64,000 nucleotides of DNA. Origin: Methanococcoides orientis. Its GTDB lineage: Archaea; Halobacteriota; Methanosarcinia; Methanosarcinales; Methanosarcinaceae. Each line of letters opens with the position of its first letter. Position 1 is the stretch's first letter. The position numbers and the translations under genes are program-made. Under the pieces are notes generated by a model that was not told the origin of the DNA, ran no database searches, and worked only from the letters and a program-made list of their open reading frames with translations. Shown here piece after piece: positions 21,067-42,991 of this stretch. The stretch is from contig NZ_CP073710.1 of the NCBI RefSeq assembly GCF_021184045.1, positions 372,001 to 436,000 of the forward strand, in the 5' to 3' direction.

Positions 21067-21254
21067 TTATTAATTATCTGTTTTTTTTTGTTTATTATTA
21101 ATTAGAAGATATTTTTCCAAAAAATCAACTTCACTAAATTAATTCCATTAAAAATCTATTGAATAATAGATATGTTCTATTTGTTAATTGGTTGATCGAT
21201 CTGTTGTTTAATTTTACCTGAACGTGCATTATTTTGATCTTGTATATTTTTGTA

Positions 21255-21769
21255 GATGAACCTTCCTGGAGGTCGGTGATTACTACCCTGGTCTCATCTG
21301 AGGATGATTCCAAAGACCTTGAGATTCCTGCAGAGAACCTGTTCTATATTGCTAAAAGGGTGCTCAAGGGCATGAACATGTACATGATCGAGTCGTAGAT
21401 CACGTCAACACCAAGTCTTTTACGGTGCTGTAAGGTTCTATGCTGAAGGTGTCAGCGGTCTGAAATATGCTTCCTTTGAAGTCGTAGGCAAACGCATATC
21501 ACGTTTTATACTGGGGGTATGGACTGAAAAAGAAGATGCACTTGTCGGTTTTTATCATAAGATATTGGAAGAGATCGAAAAGAGTACTGATCAAACTTTC
21601 GTTGATGGGGGTTCATGCAATACAATATAAGAACTACAAATATCACTGACAGCCTCATCCAACGGTCTAATATCGGTTCGGGGGCAGAGGTCAGAAAGTG
21701 CTCGAATTGTGGAAATGAAGTAAAGAACAATGCAAAGTCTGTGAAGAATGTGGGGAATGGCTGTACTGA
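21255..21769 (+). pseudogene. Decayed gene ending in a zinc ribbon
   Basis: Three coding-like segments in different frames can be joined. The first (from about 21255) reads EPSWRSVITTLVSSEDDSKD and ends at TAG 21396. The second (about 21430-21627) reads FYAEGVSGLKYASFEVVGKR and on. The third contains KCSNCGNEV and, after a further shift at about 21740, CEECGEWLY and a stop at 21767-21769. The rebuilt C-terminus is a CxxC-CxxC zinc ribbon. At least one stop and two or three frame changes make it a pseudogene unless the sequence has errors. The original family is not recognised. Confidence 0.65.
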
Positions 21770-21905
21770 TCATGTGAACAATTTCTGTTCTCCAAATATT
21801 CAGTCCTTATTTTTTTTCTTTTTTCACTGAAAAAACATATAACTTATGATTTGATTCTTAGATATTGTTTAGCTTATATTTTTTATAATTCAAAAAGGTG
21901 GTTTG

Positions 21906-24761: not shown

Positions 24762-24967
24762 TTTTTTAGTTCTCTTTCAGGTCTATTTGAAGGAATAACC
24801 TGATAGAAGACTTCTTGTACTTATACTAGTTGGAACTGTGGGGGGAGTTGTTGAATCTGAAGAAGTTAGTTACATATATGAATACTATGGATATTATATT
24901 ATATTATTGAGTATTAAATGATCTAATGGTAGATCAATTAGTGGAGCTACAATCAGGAGGGTAAATT

Positions 24968-25015
24968 GTGGTGGCTACGTATGGGATGAATGGTATTAAA
25001 GGAATAATATCATGA
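24968..25015 (+). CDS. Possible 15-codon leader ORF coupled to the FGE-like gene
   Basis: GTG at 24968 has a near-perfect SD, AGGAGGG at 24956-24962, five bases upstream. The frame encodes MVATYGMNGIKGIIS and stops at TGA 25013-25015, which overlaps the ATG of the next gene (ATGA). The next gene itself has only a weak AAAGGA SD. The arrangement suggests translational coupling or a leader peptide. It could also be chance. Confidence 0.4.
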   Translation: MVATYGMNGIKGIIS

Positions 25016-27111
25016 AGAACGAACTTGGAATGGATGTCCCCCCTTCTGTATGCAAAAAAGCAGAAGAAAAGAGATGCCATCAGGGAGTTAAGTACGTTTA
25101 TTTGGATGGAAATTATGGTGGTGAGCTTCCAGTATCAAGTATTGGTGGCAAGAAGGCTACACGCTTTAATAAAATTGATATTGCAAATGCAAATAAAGTT
25201 CATCTGGGGGCTGGCTGGGTTGCATTTACATCCCCCTTAGATGCTGATCTAAATATTCCTCTGGATGGAATCAGCAAACAGGTCATAAAACCTGATACGA
25301 GTTCTCAATCTACTTCTTCGCTTTCCCCTTTTAATAACACTGAATTGCATTCTATGGTACCTCTGGGCTTGAAAGCTACAGATTTTGAAATCAAACTGCA
25401 TGAAGCAACAAGGATGTGGAGGGAAAAAGAAGAGAAAAAGAGAAAACAAAATGGGGGGAATGAATTCTGGGGAGAGCTGGGCGGGGCAGAAATACCGAGT
25501 CTTGAAGATGAATTGCTGAATGAGTTGGATGGGGCAGAAATACCGAGTCTTGAAGATGAATTGCTGAATGAGTTGGATGGGGCAGAAATACCGAGTCTTG
25601 AAGACGAATTGCTGAATGAGTTGGATGGAGCAGAAATACCGAGTCTTGAAGACGAATTGCTGAATGAGTTGGATGGAGCAGAAATACCGAGTCTTGAAGA
25701 CGAATTGCTGAATGAGTTGGATGGAGCAGAAATACCGAGTCTTGAAGACGAATTGCTGAATGAGTTGGATGGAGCAGAAATACCGAGTCTTGAAGACGAA
25801 TTGCTGAATGAGTTGGATGGAGCAGAAATACCGAGTCTTGAAGACGAATTGCTGAATGAGTTGGATGGAGCAGAAATACCGGGTCTTGAAGACGAATTGC
25901 TGAATGAGTTGGATGGGGCAGAAGTACCGGGTCTTGAAGATGAATTGCTTAATGAGTTGGATGGGACAGAAAGAAAGCAGCTTAAAGAAGGAAATTTCCA
26001 TAAAGAGAAGGCTAAAACTTCAAAAAAAGAGCCTGAATTCGATAAATTGAGCAAAGTTCATGTTAATTCCACAAAGAGTCAGTTTTCAGACTCCCAATTC
26101 CATAAAGAGCAGGGGGAAACATCAAAAAAGCGGCCTTCCGATGGTCGGTTACGGAAGAAACAGGAAAATACAAAGAGAAAGCATAAGGATGTTGTGACCC
26201 CTCATAAATCGATGAAAGTTACTCTGGTTAAATGGTTATCTATCATAATAGCAGCCTGGCTGGTTGTTAGTTTCGTTGTCATTCCTCTAATTGATGATTC
26301 GGAAGCAGTTCCCTCTCAATATCTGGAAGCCTTAGGCAAGAATTCAATTGTTATTGCATCTGAAAATCGTAATGATGATCTTGTCAAAGATGAAGAAGTC
26401 ATGAGTTCGCAGGAAATTCCTGAGAACTATATCAATTCCATTGGTATGAAGTTTGTACTTATTCATGATGGTGAGTTCATGATGGGTTCTCCTGATGATG
26501 AAGAAGGCAGGTACTACTATAGGGAGGGGCCTGTCCATGAAGTAATGATCGGAAATGATTACTATCTTGGCAAATACGAAGTTACCCAAAAGCAATGGGC
26601 TATGGTTATGGGCAATAATCCTTCTTATGTTGTAGGAAATAATCGGCCTGTTGAAGGAATTTCGTGGGATGATGCACAGGAATTTGTAAAAAAACTGAAT
26701 TCACTGGAAGGCACGGATAAATATCGTCTTCCATCCGAAGCAGAGTGGGAATATGCCTGCAGGGCAGGCACAAACACCAAATATTACTTTGGGGACGATG
26801 AAGCCGATTTGCATAAGTATGCATGGTATAGCGGAGATATTTATTCAGTAGGGCATCTGAATCCCAATAGCTGGGGCTTGTATGATATGCATGGCAATGT
26901 CTATGAATTTGTTCAGGATGAATGGCATTCTGGCTATGAAGGTGCTCCTGAGGTTGGAACTGCCTGGGATGAGGGTATTTCTGATATCCGAACCCTGAGA
27001 AGTGGCAGTGTGAATGCAGATCCAAGTACCTGTCGTTCTGCCAGTCGTACATCTATCGAACCTGATATTCGTTTAAACAATGTAGGATTCCGCCTTGTTA
27101 TGGATGTGTGA
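25012..27111 (+). CDS. Membrane protein with ten 16-residue repeats and an FGE-sulfatase (SUMF1-like) domain
   Basis: A 699-residue protein. Residues 1-157: an N-terminal region I do not recognise. Residues 158-317: ten near-identical acidic repeats GAEIPSLEDELLNELD. Residues 318-400: a very Lys-rich linker. Residues 404-426: one transmembrane helix. Residues 475-699: a formylglycine-generating-enzyme-type domain (GMKFVLIHDGEFMMGSP, YLGKYEVTQKQW, YRLPSEAEWEYACRAGT, GLYDMHGNVYEFVQDEW, NVGFRLVMDV). The region that holds the two catalytic Cys in true FGE reads SGSVNADPSTCRSASR with one Cys, so sulfatase activation is unlikely. Basic linker before the helix places the repeats inside and the FGE domain outside. 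Confidence 0.88.
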   Translation: MKNELGMDVPPSVCKKAEEKRCHQGVKYVYLDGNYGGELPVSSIGGKKATRFNKIDIANANKVHLGAGWVAFTSPLDADLNIPLDGISKQVIKPDTSSQSTSSLSPFNNTELHSMVPLGLKATDFEIKLHEATRMWREKEEKKRKQNGGNEFWGELGGAEIPSLEDELLNELDGAEIPSLEDELLNELDGAEIPSLEDELLNELDGAEIPSLEDELLNELDGAEIPSLEDELLNELDGAEIPSLEDELLNELDGAEIPSLEDELLNELDGAEIPSLEDELLNELDGAEIPGLEDELLNELDGAEVPGLEDELLNELDGTERKQLKEGNFHKEKAKTSKKEPEFDKLSKVHVNSTKSQFSDSQFHKEQGETSKKRPSDGRLRKKQENTKRKHKDVVTPHKSMKVTLVKWLSIIIAAWLVVSFVVIPLIDDSEAVPSQYLEALGKNSIVIASENRNDDLVKDEEVMSSQEIPENYINSIGMKFVLIHDGEFMMGSPDDEEGRYYYREGPVHEVMIGNDYYLGKYEVTQKQWAMVMGNNPSYVVGNNRPVEGISWDDAQEFVKKLNSLEGTDKYRLPSEAEWEYACRAGTNTKYYFGDDEADLHKYAWYSGDIYSVGHLNPNSWGLYDMHGNVYEFVQDEWHSGYEGAPEVGTAWDEGISDIRTLRSGSVNADPSTCRSASRTSIEPDIRLNNVGFRLVMDV
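25483..25962 (+). repeat. Ten tandem copies of a 48-base coding repeat
   Basis: Ten in-frame 48-base units, mostly identical at DNA level; the first two use GAT and the later ones GAC at one codon, and the last two have glycine for serine. Near-identity shows recent expansion or ongoing homogenisation. Copy number probably varies between strains. Confidence 0.95.
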
Positions 27112-27209: not shown

Positions 27210-27602
27210 ATGCAAGATGAACTTATTGCAGAAGCAACTGATAATAATTGGGAAAAAATAGTTGAAAAAGAACCATTGCCAGTAGTGGTAATGTTCTATC
27301 TTACTACATGTCCACATTGCAAGGCAATAGAACCTTATTTTCAGGAATATGCCAGCGAGTTCAGTAAATCCTGCAAATTTGTCAGGGTCGATGCAGAACA
27401 GAGTCCCTGGACTGCGGAAAGATATGGGGTAGAAGGGACGCCCACGTTCATATTTCTTTGCGGGGGCACTTTTTTACAGGGTCTTGCAGGAATATCTCAT
27501 CCTTCAGTACTTAAAAGCAATATAGAGGATTTCATTAAACATGGGGCCACATGTGCTTCTAACATCACTAAATTGAAGTACGACATCTCTTTGTATGAAT
27601 GA
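27210..27602 (+). CDS. Thioredoxin-family protein
   Basis: A 130-residue cytoplasmic protein with a thioredoxin fold: the active site Cys34-Pro-His-Cys37 (FYLTTCPHCKAI) and the cis-proline loop EGTPTFIF. CPHC is more typical of DsbA-like oxidants than CGPC, so redox potential may be higher than in standard thioredoxin. It has no signal peptide. Its own TATA-rich region lies upstream. Partner proteins are not evident from context. Confidence 0.88.
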   Translation: MQDELIAEATDNNWEKIVEKEPLPVVVMFYLTTCPHCKAIEPYFQEYASEFSKSCKFVRVDAEQSPWTAERYGVEGTPTFIFLCGGTFLQGLAGISHPSVLKSNIEDFIKHGATCASNITKLKYDISLYE

Positions 27603-37558: not shown

Positions 37559-40432
37559 ATGAGTTTGAAACAAAGTATACTGATTTGTTTTGGAATAACT
37601 TTAGTATTGATGGCTGCAGGTATTGCTGCTGCAGCGACCCTCAATGTGACCAGCACTGTGGGTCCACAGAATTATACAACTATCCAGCAAGCGGTAAATA
37701 ACTCTGCGGCTGGCGATACTATTTTGGTGTATCCGGGTACGTATAATGAAAACGTGAACGTGGATAAACAACTGAACATTACGTCAACAGGCGGTGCTGC
37801 CGTCACGAATGTCACTGCTTTATTATCTAACGACCATGTTTTCGAGGTTACTGCAGATAATGTTACTATCCGTGGGTTCAATGTGAGTGGTGCTACCGTT
37901 GAGGGTAATGCGGGTATCTTTCTATCTTCTTCCAACAACAGCACGCTGACCGACAACACGGTGATGGGTGACTATGAAGGCATCTATCTTGTAGGCTCAA
38001 ACTACAACATGGTGACAAACAACATGCTGAAGTACTGCGGCAGTGACGGCATCGATATGGATCACTCTAACTACAACTCGTTGATCGATAACACGGCGTC
38101 GTACAATGACGACGATGGTATCGAGCTGAGTGACTTTAGCAACTACAACACGGTGACCGACAATACGGCGGAGTACAACAGCAATGACGGCATCTATCTG
38201 AATGTATCAAGTAACAACAATCTGATTAGCAACACAGTGTCGAACAACTCTATCGCTGGTATTAAGTTAAAATTGTCTAGCAACAATACGCTGATCGACA
38301 ACACGGCGTCGAGCGATGATTCCTTGAACAATTACGTCGAGCTTATTCATCTGTTAAATTCTTCCTACAACACGCTGACCGGCAACACGGCTTTTGGTGG
38401 CTGGCACGGTATCTATCTGTATATATCCAGTAACAATGACTTAACCAACAACAATGCATCGAACAATGGTAATGACGGTATTGAGCTGGAATGGTCTGGC
38501 AACAACACGCTGACCAGTAACACGGTGTCGTACGCTGCCGAAGATGGTATTGAGGTGGACTGGTCTGGTAACAATGACCTGATCAACAACAAGGTCTCAA
38601 ACAACCATTATGAGGGCATCCGGATAGTTAATTCCAGCTACAACACGCTGACCGGCAACACGGCGGAGTACAACACCAATGACGGCATCGATCTCAAAAA
38701 CTCCAGCTACAACACGCTGACCGACAACACGGCGGAGTACAACGGCAATGACGGCTTCGATATCAAAGAGTCCAGCAACAACAACATGCTGAGCAACAAC
38801 ACGGCGGAGTACAACGGCAATGATGGCATCTATTTGGGTTATTCCAGCAACAACACCCTGATTGGCAACATGTTGTCGCATAATACTAGGGATGGCATCG
38901 ATATGGATTACTGCAGCATCAGCAATCTAACCGACAACAAGGTGTCGTACAGCGGCGAGGAAGGCATCGATGTGGATAGCTCCAGCAACAATCGCATCTA
39001 CAACAACTACTTCAACAACACGATTAATGTTGGATTTATTGGCATCAATGTTGGAAACATATGGAATATCACAAAAACCGCTGGTACAAACGTCGTGGGA
39101 GGTCCCTATATTGGAGGTAACTACTGGTCAGATTATAGCGGTGTTGATAATGATGGAGATGGAATCGGCGACTCCCAGATTGATCTTAATGCCAGTAACA
39201 CAGACTATCTGCCACTGTTGCTGGATACCACGGCTCCTGTGATCGCAGTGGAACTTCCGCAGAACAATGCAGACTATTCCACAAGAACAGTTCCGCTCAA
39301 CGTTACCGGTGACGGGACCGTGAATAAGTGGTGGTACAGCCTCAATGGCGGAGCCAATGTCACATTCACACCCAACATAACATTGCCTGAACTGCCTGAC
39401 GATGATTATTTCATCATGGTCTATGCCAATGACACTGTAGGTAATGAGGTTGCATCAGCCCTGATCAATTTCAGTATCGATACCGTACCTCCTGCAAATA
39501 TTACGAATCTCACGGTTGCATCAAGAACAAGAAGTTCCATCACCCTTTCATGGGACGTTTCTCACGATGCTGATCATGTGGAACTGTGGAGGAACAATGT
39601 CTACATTACCGATGTGTTTGGTGTCAGCCATGAAAATACAGGATTGGCTTCTGCAACATCCTACAATTATGGTCTGCGCCCGGTTGATACTGCTGGAAAT
39701 GTGGGCAACTGGTCAAATATCACGGCATCGACCCAAACCAGTAGCACTTCAGGTAGTACAAAATCCTCTAGTAGTGGGGGTGGTAGTGGATCAAGTGGTG
39801 AAGCCTTTGAGAACATCGCCTTCAAGGACGTGAAGACAGAGAACATCATAAGTGGACTTGAAATCAGTTATGTCTTCGATGAAGAACAGAATGCAATTCA
39901 GTACATCAACTTCTCTGCATTGAGAAACTACGGAAGGGTTTCAACAACTATCGAAGTGCTTAAGGGCAGATCTACACTGGTTGATGAAAGTGCTCCGGGA
40001 ATTGTTTATAGCAACCTTAACATCTGGGTTGGTATCTCAGGATTTGCTACAGAAGATAACATTGCTAATCCGGTAATAGGTTTCCGTGTAGCAAAAGAAT
40101 GGTTGACAGAAAATGGACTTGATGAGAAATCAATTGTATTATATCGTCACAGTGAAGGCAAATGGAATGCTCTTGATACAAAGAAAGTTGGAGAAGATGA
40201 TAAATTCTTGTACTTCGAGGCAAAAGCAACAGGTTTCTCATCATTTGCAATTTGCGCTTTGAAGATGGATACTACTCCGATTATAGCCCCATTCCCATCT
40301 GATGACGATGTAATTACTGAAGTGCCTGAGTTAGAAAATGAGGCAGTGTCTACTGGTCTGCCAGGTTTCAGTTCACTTCTCGCGATTGGAGTTCTCGGTA
40401 TGGTTTATACCTTATTCAGAAGAAGAACTTAA
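37559..40432 (+). CDS. Large surface protein: NosD-like beta-helix, FN3-like, PGF-pre-PGF and PGF-CTERM
   Basis: A 957-residue exported protein (from ATG 37559). It has a signal peptide (ICFGITLVLMAAGIAAA), then about 20 right-handed beta-helix coils built on YNTLTDNTAEYNGNDGI-like repeats, then an FN3-like segment (about 650-720), a Ser/Gly linker, a PGF-pre-PGF domain and a C-terminal PGF-CTERM (LPGFSSLLAIGVLGMVY, RRR), the signal cleaved by archaeosortase and replaced by a lipid anchor. It is probably part of the S-layer or cell-contact surface. The tandem DNA repeats make copy-number change likely. Confidence 0.9.
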   Translation: MSLKQSILICFGITLVLMAAGIAAAATLNVTSTVGPQNYTTIQQAVNNSAAGDTILVYPGTYNENVNVDKQLNITSTGGAAVTNVTALLSNDHVFEVTADNVTIRGFNVSGATVEGNAGIFLSSSNNSTLTDNTVMGDYEGIYLVGSNYNMVTNNMLKYCGSDGIDMDHSNYNSLIDNTASYNDDDGIELSDFSNYNTVTDNTAEYNSNDGIYLNVSSNNNLISNTVSNNSIAGIKLKLSSNNTLIDNTASSDDSLNNYVELIHLLNSSYNTLTGNTAFGGWHGIYLYISSNNDLTNNNASNNGNDGIELEWSGNNTLTSNTVSYAAEDGIEVDWSGNNDLINNKVSNNHYEGIRIVNSSYNTLTGNTAEYNTNDGIDLKNSSYNTLTDNTAEYNGNDGFDIKESSNNNMLSNNTAEYNGNDGIYLGYSSNNTLIGNMLSHNTRDGIDMDYCSISNLTDNKVSYSGEEGIDVDSSSNNRIYNNYFNNTINVGFIGINVGNIWNITKTAGTNVVGGPYIGGNYWSDYSGVDNDGDGIGDSQIDLNASNTDYLPLLLDTTAPVIAVELPQNNADYSTRTVPLNVTGDGTVNKWWYSLNGGANVTFTPNITLPELPDDDYFIMVYANDTVGNEVASALINFSIDTVPPANITNLTVASRTRSSITLSWDVSHDADHVELWRNNVYITDVFGVSHENTGLASATSYNYGLRPVDTAGNVGNWSNITASTQTSSTSGSTKSSSSGGGSGSSGEAFENIAFKDVKTENIISGLEISYVFDEEQNAIQYINFSALRNYGRVSTTIEVLKGRSTLVDESAPGIVYSNLNIWVGISGFATEDNIANPVIGFRVAKEWLTENGLDEKSIVLYRHSEGKWNALDTKKVGEDDKFLYFEAKATGFSSFAICALKMDTTPIIAPFPSDDDVITEVPELENEAVSTGLPGFSSLLAIGVLGMVYTLFRRRT

Positions 40433-42616: not shown

Positions 42617-42658
42617 CTTGTGAAAGGTACAAATCACATTTTTCCAAAAAAATAATAC

Positions 42659-42714
42659 AAAAAAATCATAGCAAAAAAATCATAGCAAAAAAATCATAGC
42701 AAAAAAATCATAGC
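42659..42714. repeat. Four tandem copies of a 14-base unit
   Basis: The unit AAAAAAATCATAGC occurs four times without mismatch, followed by another seven A. The run lies in the region 42446-42991, about 545 bases between the ion channel and the next gene, which otherwise holds dispersed-repeat copy 3, a gene fragment and A/T-rich promoter sequence. Confidence 0.95.
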
Positions 42715-42991
42715 AAAAAAAGAAGGATGCATTACCTCCTCTTTTCATAAATCTCTTCTTCATGGTTTCCTTTGGTGTTATGTAACTCCTATAAATGAAA
42801 ATCCACTTTTGCAAAATATTTGATAATGCCCACTGTTTTGACAAATCTGATCTGCAATCAATATCTTCCAATAACCTCCTAGTTTGAAGCGCAAAAAATA
42901 TATCTTGTAAAATTATAATTTATATGTTGTGGAAAATAGTCATCAATGTTTGATGGATTATTTAATAAGAAATCATAGGTGAGGGTAAATT

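Follow-up and report, generated by a model that had tools for sequence, protein, structure and literature searches.

A membrane protein of 699 amino acids, encoded at positions 25012..27111 of the 64,000-nucleotide window from Methanococcoides orientis that was analysed here, combines an N-terminal module common to proteins of methanogen ESCRT loci with ten acidic repeats, a Lys-rich linker, a single predicted transmembrane helix and an FGE-like domain, and its start codon overlaps the stop codon of a 15-codon leader ORF which reads straight through a predicted hairpin. It may well be that this protein is a single-pass receptor or cargo-adaptor, with its N-terminus inside and its C-terminus outside the cell, and that its translation is coupled to the leader ORF through the opening of the start-codon hairpin, a combined reading which is held here with about even confidence. 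All positions given below without a locus name are those of the window, the features of the gene, its leader and the upstream gene remnant lie on the forward strand, and the host genome (G000) consists of one archaeal chromosome of 2.49 Mb.

The start at 25012 is backed by homologues without a leader, which begin at the same methionine. From this start, the N-terminal module (residues 1-78; 25012..25245), the repeat array (residues 158-317; 25483..25962), a Lys-rich cytoplasmic linker with 25 K/R in 88 residues (residues 318-405; 25963..26226), a transmembrane helix predicted by hydropathy (residues 406-428; 26227..26295) and an FGE-like domain of the C-type-lectin fold (residues 480-696; 26449..27099) could be distinguished. 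The helix coincides with the single hydrophobic stretch of the protein (residues ~405-428), and its positive side is directed toward the N-terminus, as predicted for an N-in/C-out orientation. The parts listed in the earlier note, namely the repeats, Lys-rich linker, one helix, FGE-like domain and mini-ORF, are thus all in place, and its assignment of the repeats to the inner side and of the FGE domain to the outside is supported by the positive-inside orientation predicted for the helix. Both the FGE part and the N-terminal module are under purifying selection (dN/dS ~0.12-0.28).

The repeat array comprises ten acidic units of 48 bp or 16 amino acids (GAEIPSLEDELLNELD), among which units 4-8 are identical in DNA, and was recovered by Tandem Repeats Finder with a period of 48, 10.1 copies and 97% matches. 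It incorporates 60 acidic and 0 basic residues. The sister genome (G006) carries nine copies of the 16-residue unit, and the array as such is missing in three relatives; the repeat is therefore neither absent nor fixed in all relatives, the outcomes which had been named beforehand as speaking against the earlier interpretation. The window array looks recently homogenised, as judged from the DNA, since its copies differ from one another by a mean of 1.8 positions per 48 bp, as compared to 3.4 between the window and G006 and 4.3 within G006. The stalk of G004 is made up of 17-residue K/E-rich units, while those of G010 and G007 contain about two 17-residue units each, and the alignment of these units to the window repeat scores well beyond that of shuffled sequences (0/2000 shuffles). 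The repeats evidently derive from a charged stalk of 17-residue K/E units. A low-confidence AF2 model of the repeats, made with no alignment, shows one short helix per unit and no packing. The sequence DELLNEL was considered as a MIM1-like motif binding the Vps4 MIT domain, and is not claimed here on account of its poor fit to the pattern and the absence of Vps4 from G000. Elsewhere in the window, ~3 copies of a 69-bp tandem repeat occur in a possible surface-protein gene (38630-38870), and 5.6 copies of a 14-bp tandem repeat (CAAAAAAATCATAG; 96% matches) are found at 42645-42721.

The mini-ORF (MVATYGMNGIKGIIS; 24968..25015) is initiated by GTG, is preceded by a Shine-Dalgarno (SD) sequence AGGAGGG (24955..24961) ending 6 nt before the GTG, and terminates in a TGA which overlaps the main ATG as ATGA. 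The earlier note had described its SD as far better than that of the main gene and its stop as lying on the main start, and the sequence agrees with this, the main gene having only a weak SD, AGGA. This AGGA is located in the 6-nt loop of a predicted 9-bp hairpin (ATGGTATTA-AAGGAA-TAATATCAT; 24990..25013), the 3' arm of which covers the AT of the main ATG, with a predicted energy of -6.2 kcal/mol at 37 C and -8.7 at 25 C. The leader thus has an SD of its own upstream and a stop overlapping the downstream start, which itself lies inside a predicted structure. In 5/5 genus orthologues (window, G004, G006, G007 and G010) the mini-ORF has 15 codons in the same frame with no indel, an SD-like site occurs at the same place and the predicted hairpin is kept (97.8% of cells paired), including in the relocated copy of G004, where it has 8 bp. 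Covariation in the hairpin is weak, as most pairs are invariant and the five orthologues represent about three lineages only. Among the 11 genus genomes searched, the five that hold the gene each have a single copy of the leader and the others have none (0/6); it is likewise absent from related genes elsewhere, and no known RNA family was found at this position. Across lineages the leader DNA is 80-86% identical, which exceeds the 62-69% measured for third codon positions in the FGE part and the 53-74% of the DNA lying farther upstream. Leader substitutions are spread evenly over the codon positions, so that selection at the peptide level is unsupported, and it is, on the pattern of conservation, the hairpin rather than the peptide that explains the conserved 3' part of the leader. 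In control data from the same genome (464 kb, 336 genes), an uninterrupted stem of at least 9 bp over the start codon was observed for 3/336 genes, among them this one; coupled mini-ORFs that have an SD at the chosen start were similarly few (~3/336, ~1%). The proposal of leader control, put forward on the strength of the mini-ORF in this one sequence, is strengthened by the conservation of both mini-ORF and predicted hairpin in 5/5 orthologues. In several orthologues the SD of the mini-ORF is also predicted to pair over a long range with ~25040-25049 (main-gene codons ~10-14); shuffling of both helices together does not support this pairing (56/500 reach the observed score), and its covariation is not significant.

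The FGE-like domain matches the FGE-sulfatase family PF03781 over residues 480-696 (E 8.8e-44; 150.5 bits against a cut-off of 23.3; Pfam), and can be placed by this profile in the FGE/SUMF1-PvdO-EgtB-like family. The nearest solved relative by sequence is PvdO (5hha; 1.1e-31), with TvpA (2y3c) second-best, and the best NCBIfam match is likewise the PvdO model (dihydropyoverdine dehydrogenase; 1.3e-38), from which the domain is nevertheless far removed, at 132.7 bits against a family cut-off of 500. Aligned to PDB 6muj, the domain has Ala in place of the first active-site Cys, while one Cys occurs at or near the second position, beside a 3-residue gap; this Cys belongs to a CRxxxR motif which is shared by other FGE-like proteins of this analysis. 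The statement that the catalytic FGE cysteines are missing therefore holds for the copper-site pair, and does not hold strictly for both residues. Binding rather than oxidation is plausible and would be the likelier role of the domain. FGE-like domains are similarly found at the C-terminus of varied N-terminal modules in the FGS effectors of NTP-dependent conflict systems and diversity-generating retroelements (PMC7159879); this protein differs from them in that no vWA, MoxR or VMAP partner occurs in the neighbourhood read, no reverse transcriptase is present and the domain is not hypervariable.

The N-terminal module is conserved in 5/5 genus orthologues and, through its link to ESCRT, gives the protein its context. 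Over ~78 aa it shares 62% and 59% identity, respectively, with ESCRT-locus appendage proteins of G015 and G153, where it heads an appendage-plus-zinc-ribbon protein in ESCRT-like operons; a relative of this protein is found in G150 (Methanolobus psychrotolerans). G015 is very probably M. zhilinae, a representative in the published description of Meth_adaptin (PMC11188069; WP_013898571.1 and WP_013898578.1), since it belongs to the same genus as G028, Methanosalsum natronophilum, and for this reason the module most likely corresponds to the 'uncharacterized N-terminal domain' of that study. Furthermore, a module protein adjoins a Vps4-like gene in G395, and the module occurs in solo form in G143. 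It also starts nuclease-like proteins in G150, G160 and G028. For example, the protein at L056:6124-7344 (G160, L073, Methanolobus sp.), which joins the module to a nuclease-like domain, is encoded immediately after RAMP-like genes of type III CRISPR, as recognised by eye, and a protein similar to it (L074) gave a weak match to PADLOC PDC-S18. A 75-aa module is inserted in a PheS-like ORF (phenylalanyl-tRNA synthetase alpha) at L059:5683-7374 (G127; also L075, Candidatus Methanoperedens nitroreducens Mnv1), where it separates the winged-helix part from the catalytic core. No named family for the module was matched in Pfam, NCBIfam or PDB, and the module part of module-bearing proteins gave no match in PADLOC or PHROGs. 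A viral origin of the module was also considered; no viral contig was found. The AlphaFold model of the module is of low confidence (pLDDT 58).

In G006 and G010 an ESCRT operon, encoding wH, Vps4-like, Snf7-like, SPFH and appendage proteins between S6e and TPR genes, is located ~7 kb upstream of this gene. In the window, the junction at 21253/21254 (~4 kb upstream of the gene) marks the clean deletion of a 6.1-kb segment that is present in the sister genome, joining L101:10438 to L101:16544 of G006, with the loss of the wH, Vps4-like, Snf7-like and SPFH genes. The tail of the appendage/zinc-ribbon gene remains at 21254..21775, as delimited by comparison with G006, the right end being approximate. 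Genome searches of G000 gave no Snf7-like match and no Vps4 orthologue, both of which are present in G004, G006 and G010, and a search with the appendage region returned no adaptin appendage domain in G000. G007 likewise lacks the ESCRT operon, while G003 retains a Vps4 fragment. Among the 11 genus genomes, both the gene and the operon are found in three, the gene only in two and the operon only in two, which amounts to a loose co-occurrence, and in G004 the gene and its leader have a different location, with a CDC48-like gene downstream of them. As the operon is absent from G000 and G007, an ESCRT role is not obligatory here, and the gene, kept in G000 under purifying selection (dN/dS ~0.2) despite the deletion, does not need the operon.

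The putative link to ESCRT rests on the shared domain and on the neighbourhood in relatives. A parallel family, with an adaptin-appendage domain in place of the N-terminal module followed by a K/E/R-rich charged stalk, a transmembrane helix and an FGE domain, occurs in G153, G030, G004, G020 and G033 (members include L035:4130-6226, L106:12017-14365 and L054:11190-13226); those of G153 and G030 lie within or close to ESCRT loci. The G030 member carries a further N-terminal module. In the published Meth_adaptin ESCRT locus the domain linked to a transmembrane segment is GOLD (PMC11188069), so that the plan of adaptor, transmembrane linker and binding domain is the same as here. The protein is distinguished from Meth_adaptin by its lack of an adaptin appendage, an FGE-like rather than a GOLD domain, the acidic repeats and the deletion of the ESCRT operon from G000. 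A receptor-like role is suggested by this recurrence of the layout in proteins headed by the appendage domain, and by the membrane-linked GOLD domain of the published locus.

Several other explanations bear on parts of this reading. The inverted repeat at 24990-25013 could be a DNA operator for a transcription factor, with the mini-ORF an untranslated by-product of a conserved start region. This is unlikely: the repeat does form a perfect palindrome (GATATTA-N6-TAATATC) in three orthologues, G010, G007 and G004, the majority of its pairs are invariant, as would be expected of a protein-binding site, and the leader shows no codon-position bias, but the repeat covers the start codon and not the promoter, and an SD and GTG at fixed spacing, serving only the mini-ORF, are also conserved 44 nt upstream. 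Moreover, variation between G-U and A-U preserves the RNA pairing, whereas in G000 and G006 it leaves the DNA palindrome imperfect. More improbable still is an enzymatic role, in which the FGE-like domain, held outside the cell by its anchor, would be active as an oxidase or as another type of modifying enzyme, of the PvdO or EgtB kind. The absence of the Cys pair counts against an enzyme and yet does not by itself exclude catalysis, since PvdO, the nearest solved relative and best NCBIfam match, bears an enzyme name (NCBIfam); the score against the PvdO model, however, is far under its cut-off. A thioredoxin gene is found downstream (27210-27602), which would suit an enzyme, but the same thioredoxin adjacency occurs in G004 without this gene. 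The chance that a diversity-generating retroelement acts on the FGE domain is practically nil, even though FGE-like C-type-lectin domains are the usual scaffold of such elements and TvpA is the second-best solved relative: a PF00078 search of the genome returned no reverse transcriptase, and the FGE part at the C-terminus shows conservation (dN/dS ~0.12-0.22) and no hypervariability, so that this origin is refuted for G000.

A broader alternative is that the gene encodes an ordinary FGE-like surface protein with an acidic spacer of variable length and no ESCRT link, in which case the module would be a general protein or nucleic-acid binder. The retention of the gene where the operon is missing (G000 and G007), the modelling of the repeats, at low confidence, as separate short helices without packing, and the occurrence of the module in nuclease-like proteins, one of them beside type III CRISPR (G160), and in the PheS-like ORF (G127) are all in its favour. 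It is considered doubtful, given that the module also occurs in ESCRT-operon proteins of G015 and G153 and beside the Vps4-like gene of G395, and that the layout of FGE domain, transmembrane helix and stalk recurs with an appendage domain in the ESCRT loci of G153 and G030.

For a receptor-like protein under leader control, the main start codon and weak SD would be folded away in the hairpin, and a ribosome loaded at the strong leader SD would melt it while decoding the last leader codons, terminate at the ATGA and then reinitiate at the main ATG. ATGA termination-reinitiation is strict in tested archaeal gene pairs of Haloferax (PMC6728339), and structures controlled by upstream ORFs are known in Salmonella, for example mgtQ-mgtB (PMC8092293). 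The ATGA overlap, and an upstream ORF traversing a structure that hides a downstream start, are shared with these systems; here the leader has only 15 codons and no other apparent role, and the host is archaeal. Leader ORFs by themselves are no rarity in this order, since of the unannotated small ORFs that Ribo-seq revealed in M. mazei ~10% map to 5' UTRs. Within a limited literature search, no dedicated leader opening a start-codon hairpin was found described in archaea. Outside the cell, the FGE-like domain would be a probable ligand binder; inside, an adaptor module of the methanogen ESCRT 'Meth_adaptin' kind would be carried on a charged stalk, which in the window lineage may have grown into ten acidic docking helices. 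The protein would thereby act in the manner of a surface sensor or of a transmembrane receptor for cargo.

To our knowledge, there are little functional data on archaeal ESCRT outside Asgard and TACK. A tentative extension, for which the confidence is low, is that archaeal ESCRT uses a portable, undescribed adaptor domain to connect varied outputs, comprising a membrane receptor, a nuclease and a tRNA-synthetase fusion, to a single network for membrane sorting or surveillance, with a receptor that in this genus outlives the machinery and is synthesised under the gating of a leader hairpin. The change from stalk to repeat shows how a membrane protein has recently been expanded in frame, and the leader with its hairpin is a compact system in which possible regulated translational coupling in a methanogen could readily be tested. 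As a mark of ESCRT partners that occurs also on a surface receptor, on nuclease-like proteins and near type III CRISPR, the small domain may offer a handle on the cargo and outputs of this system.
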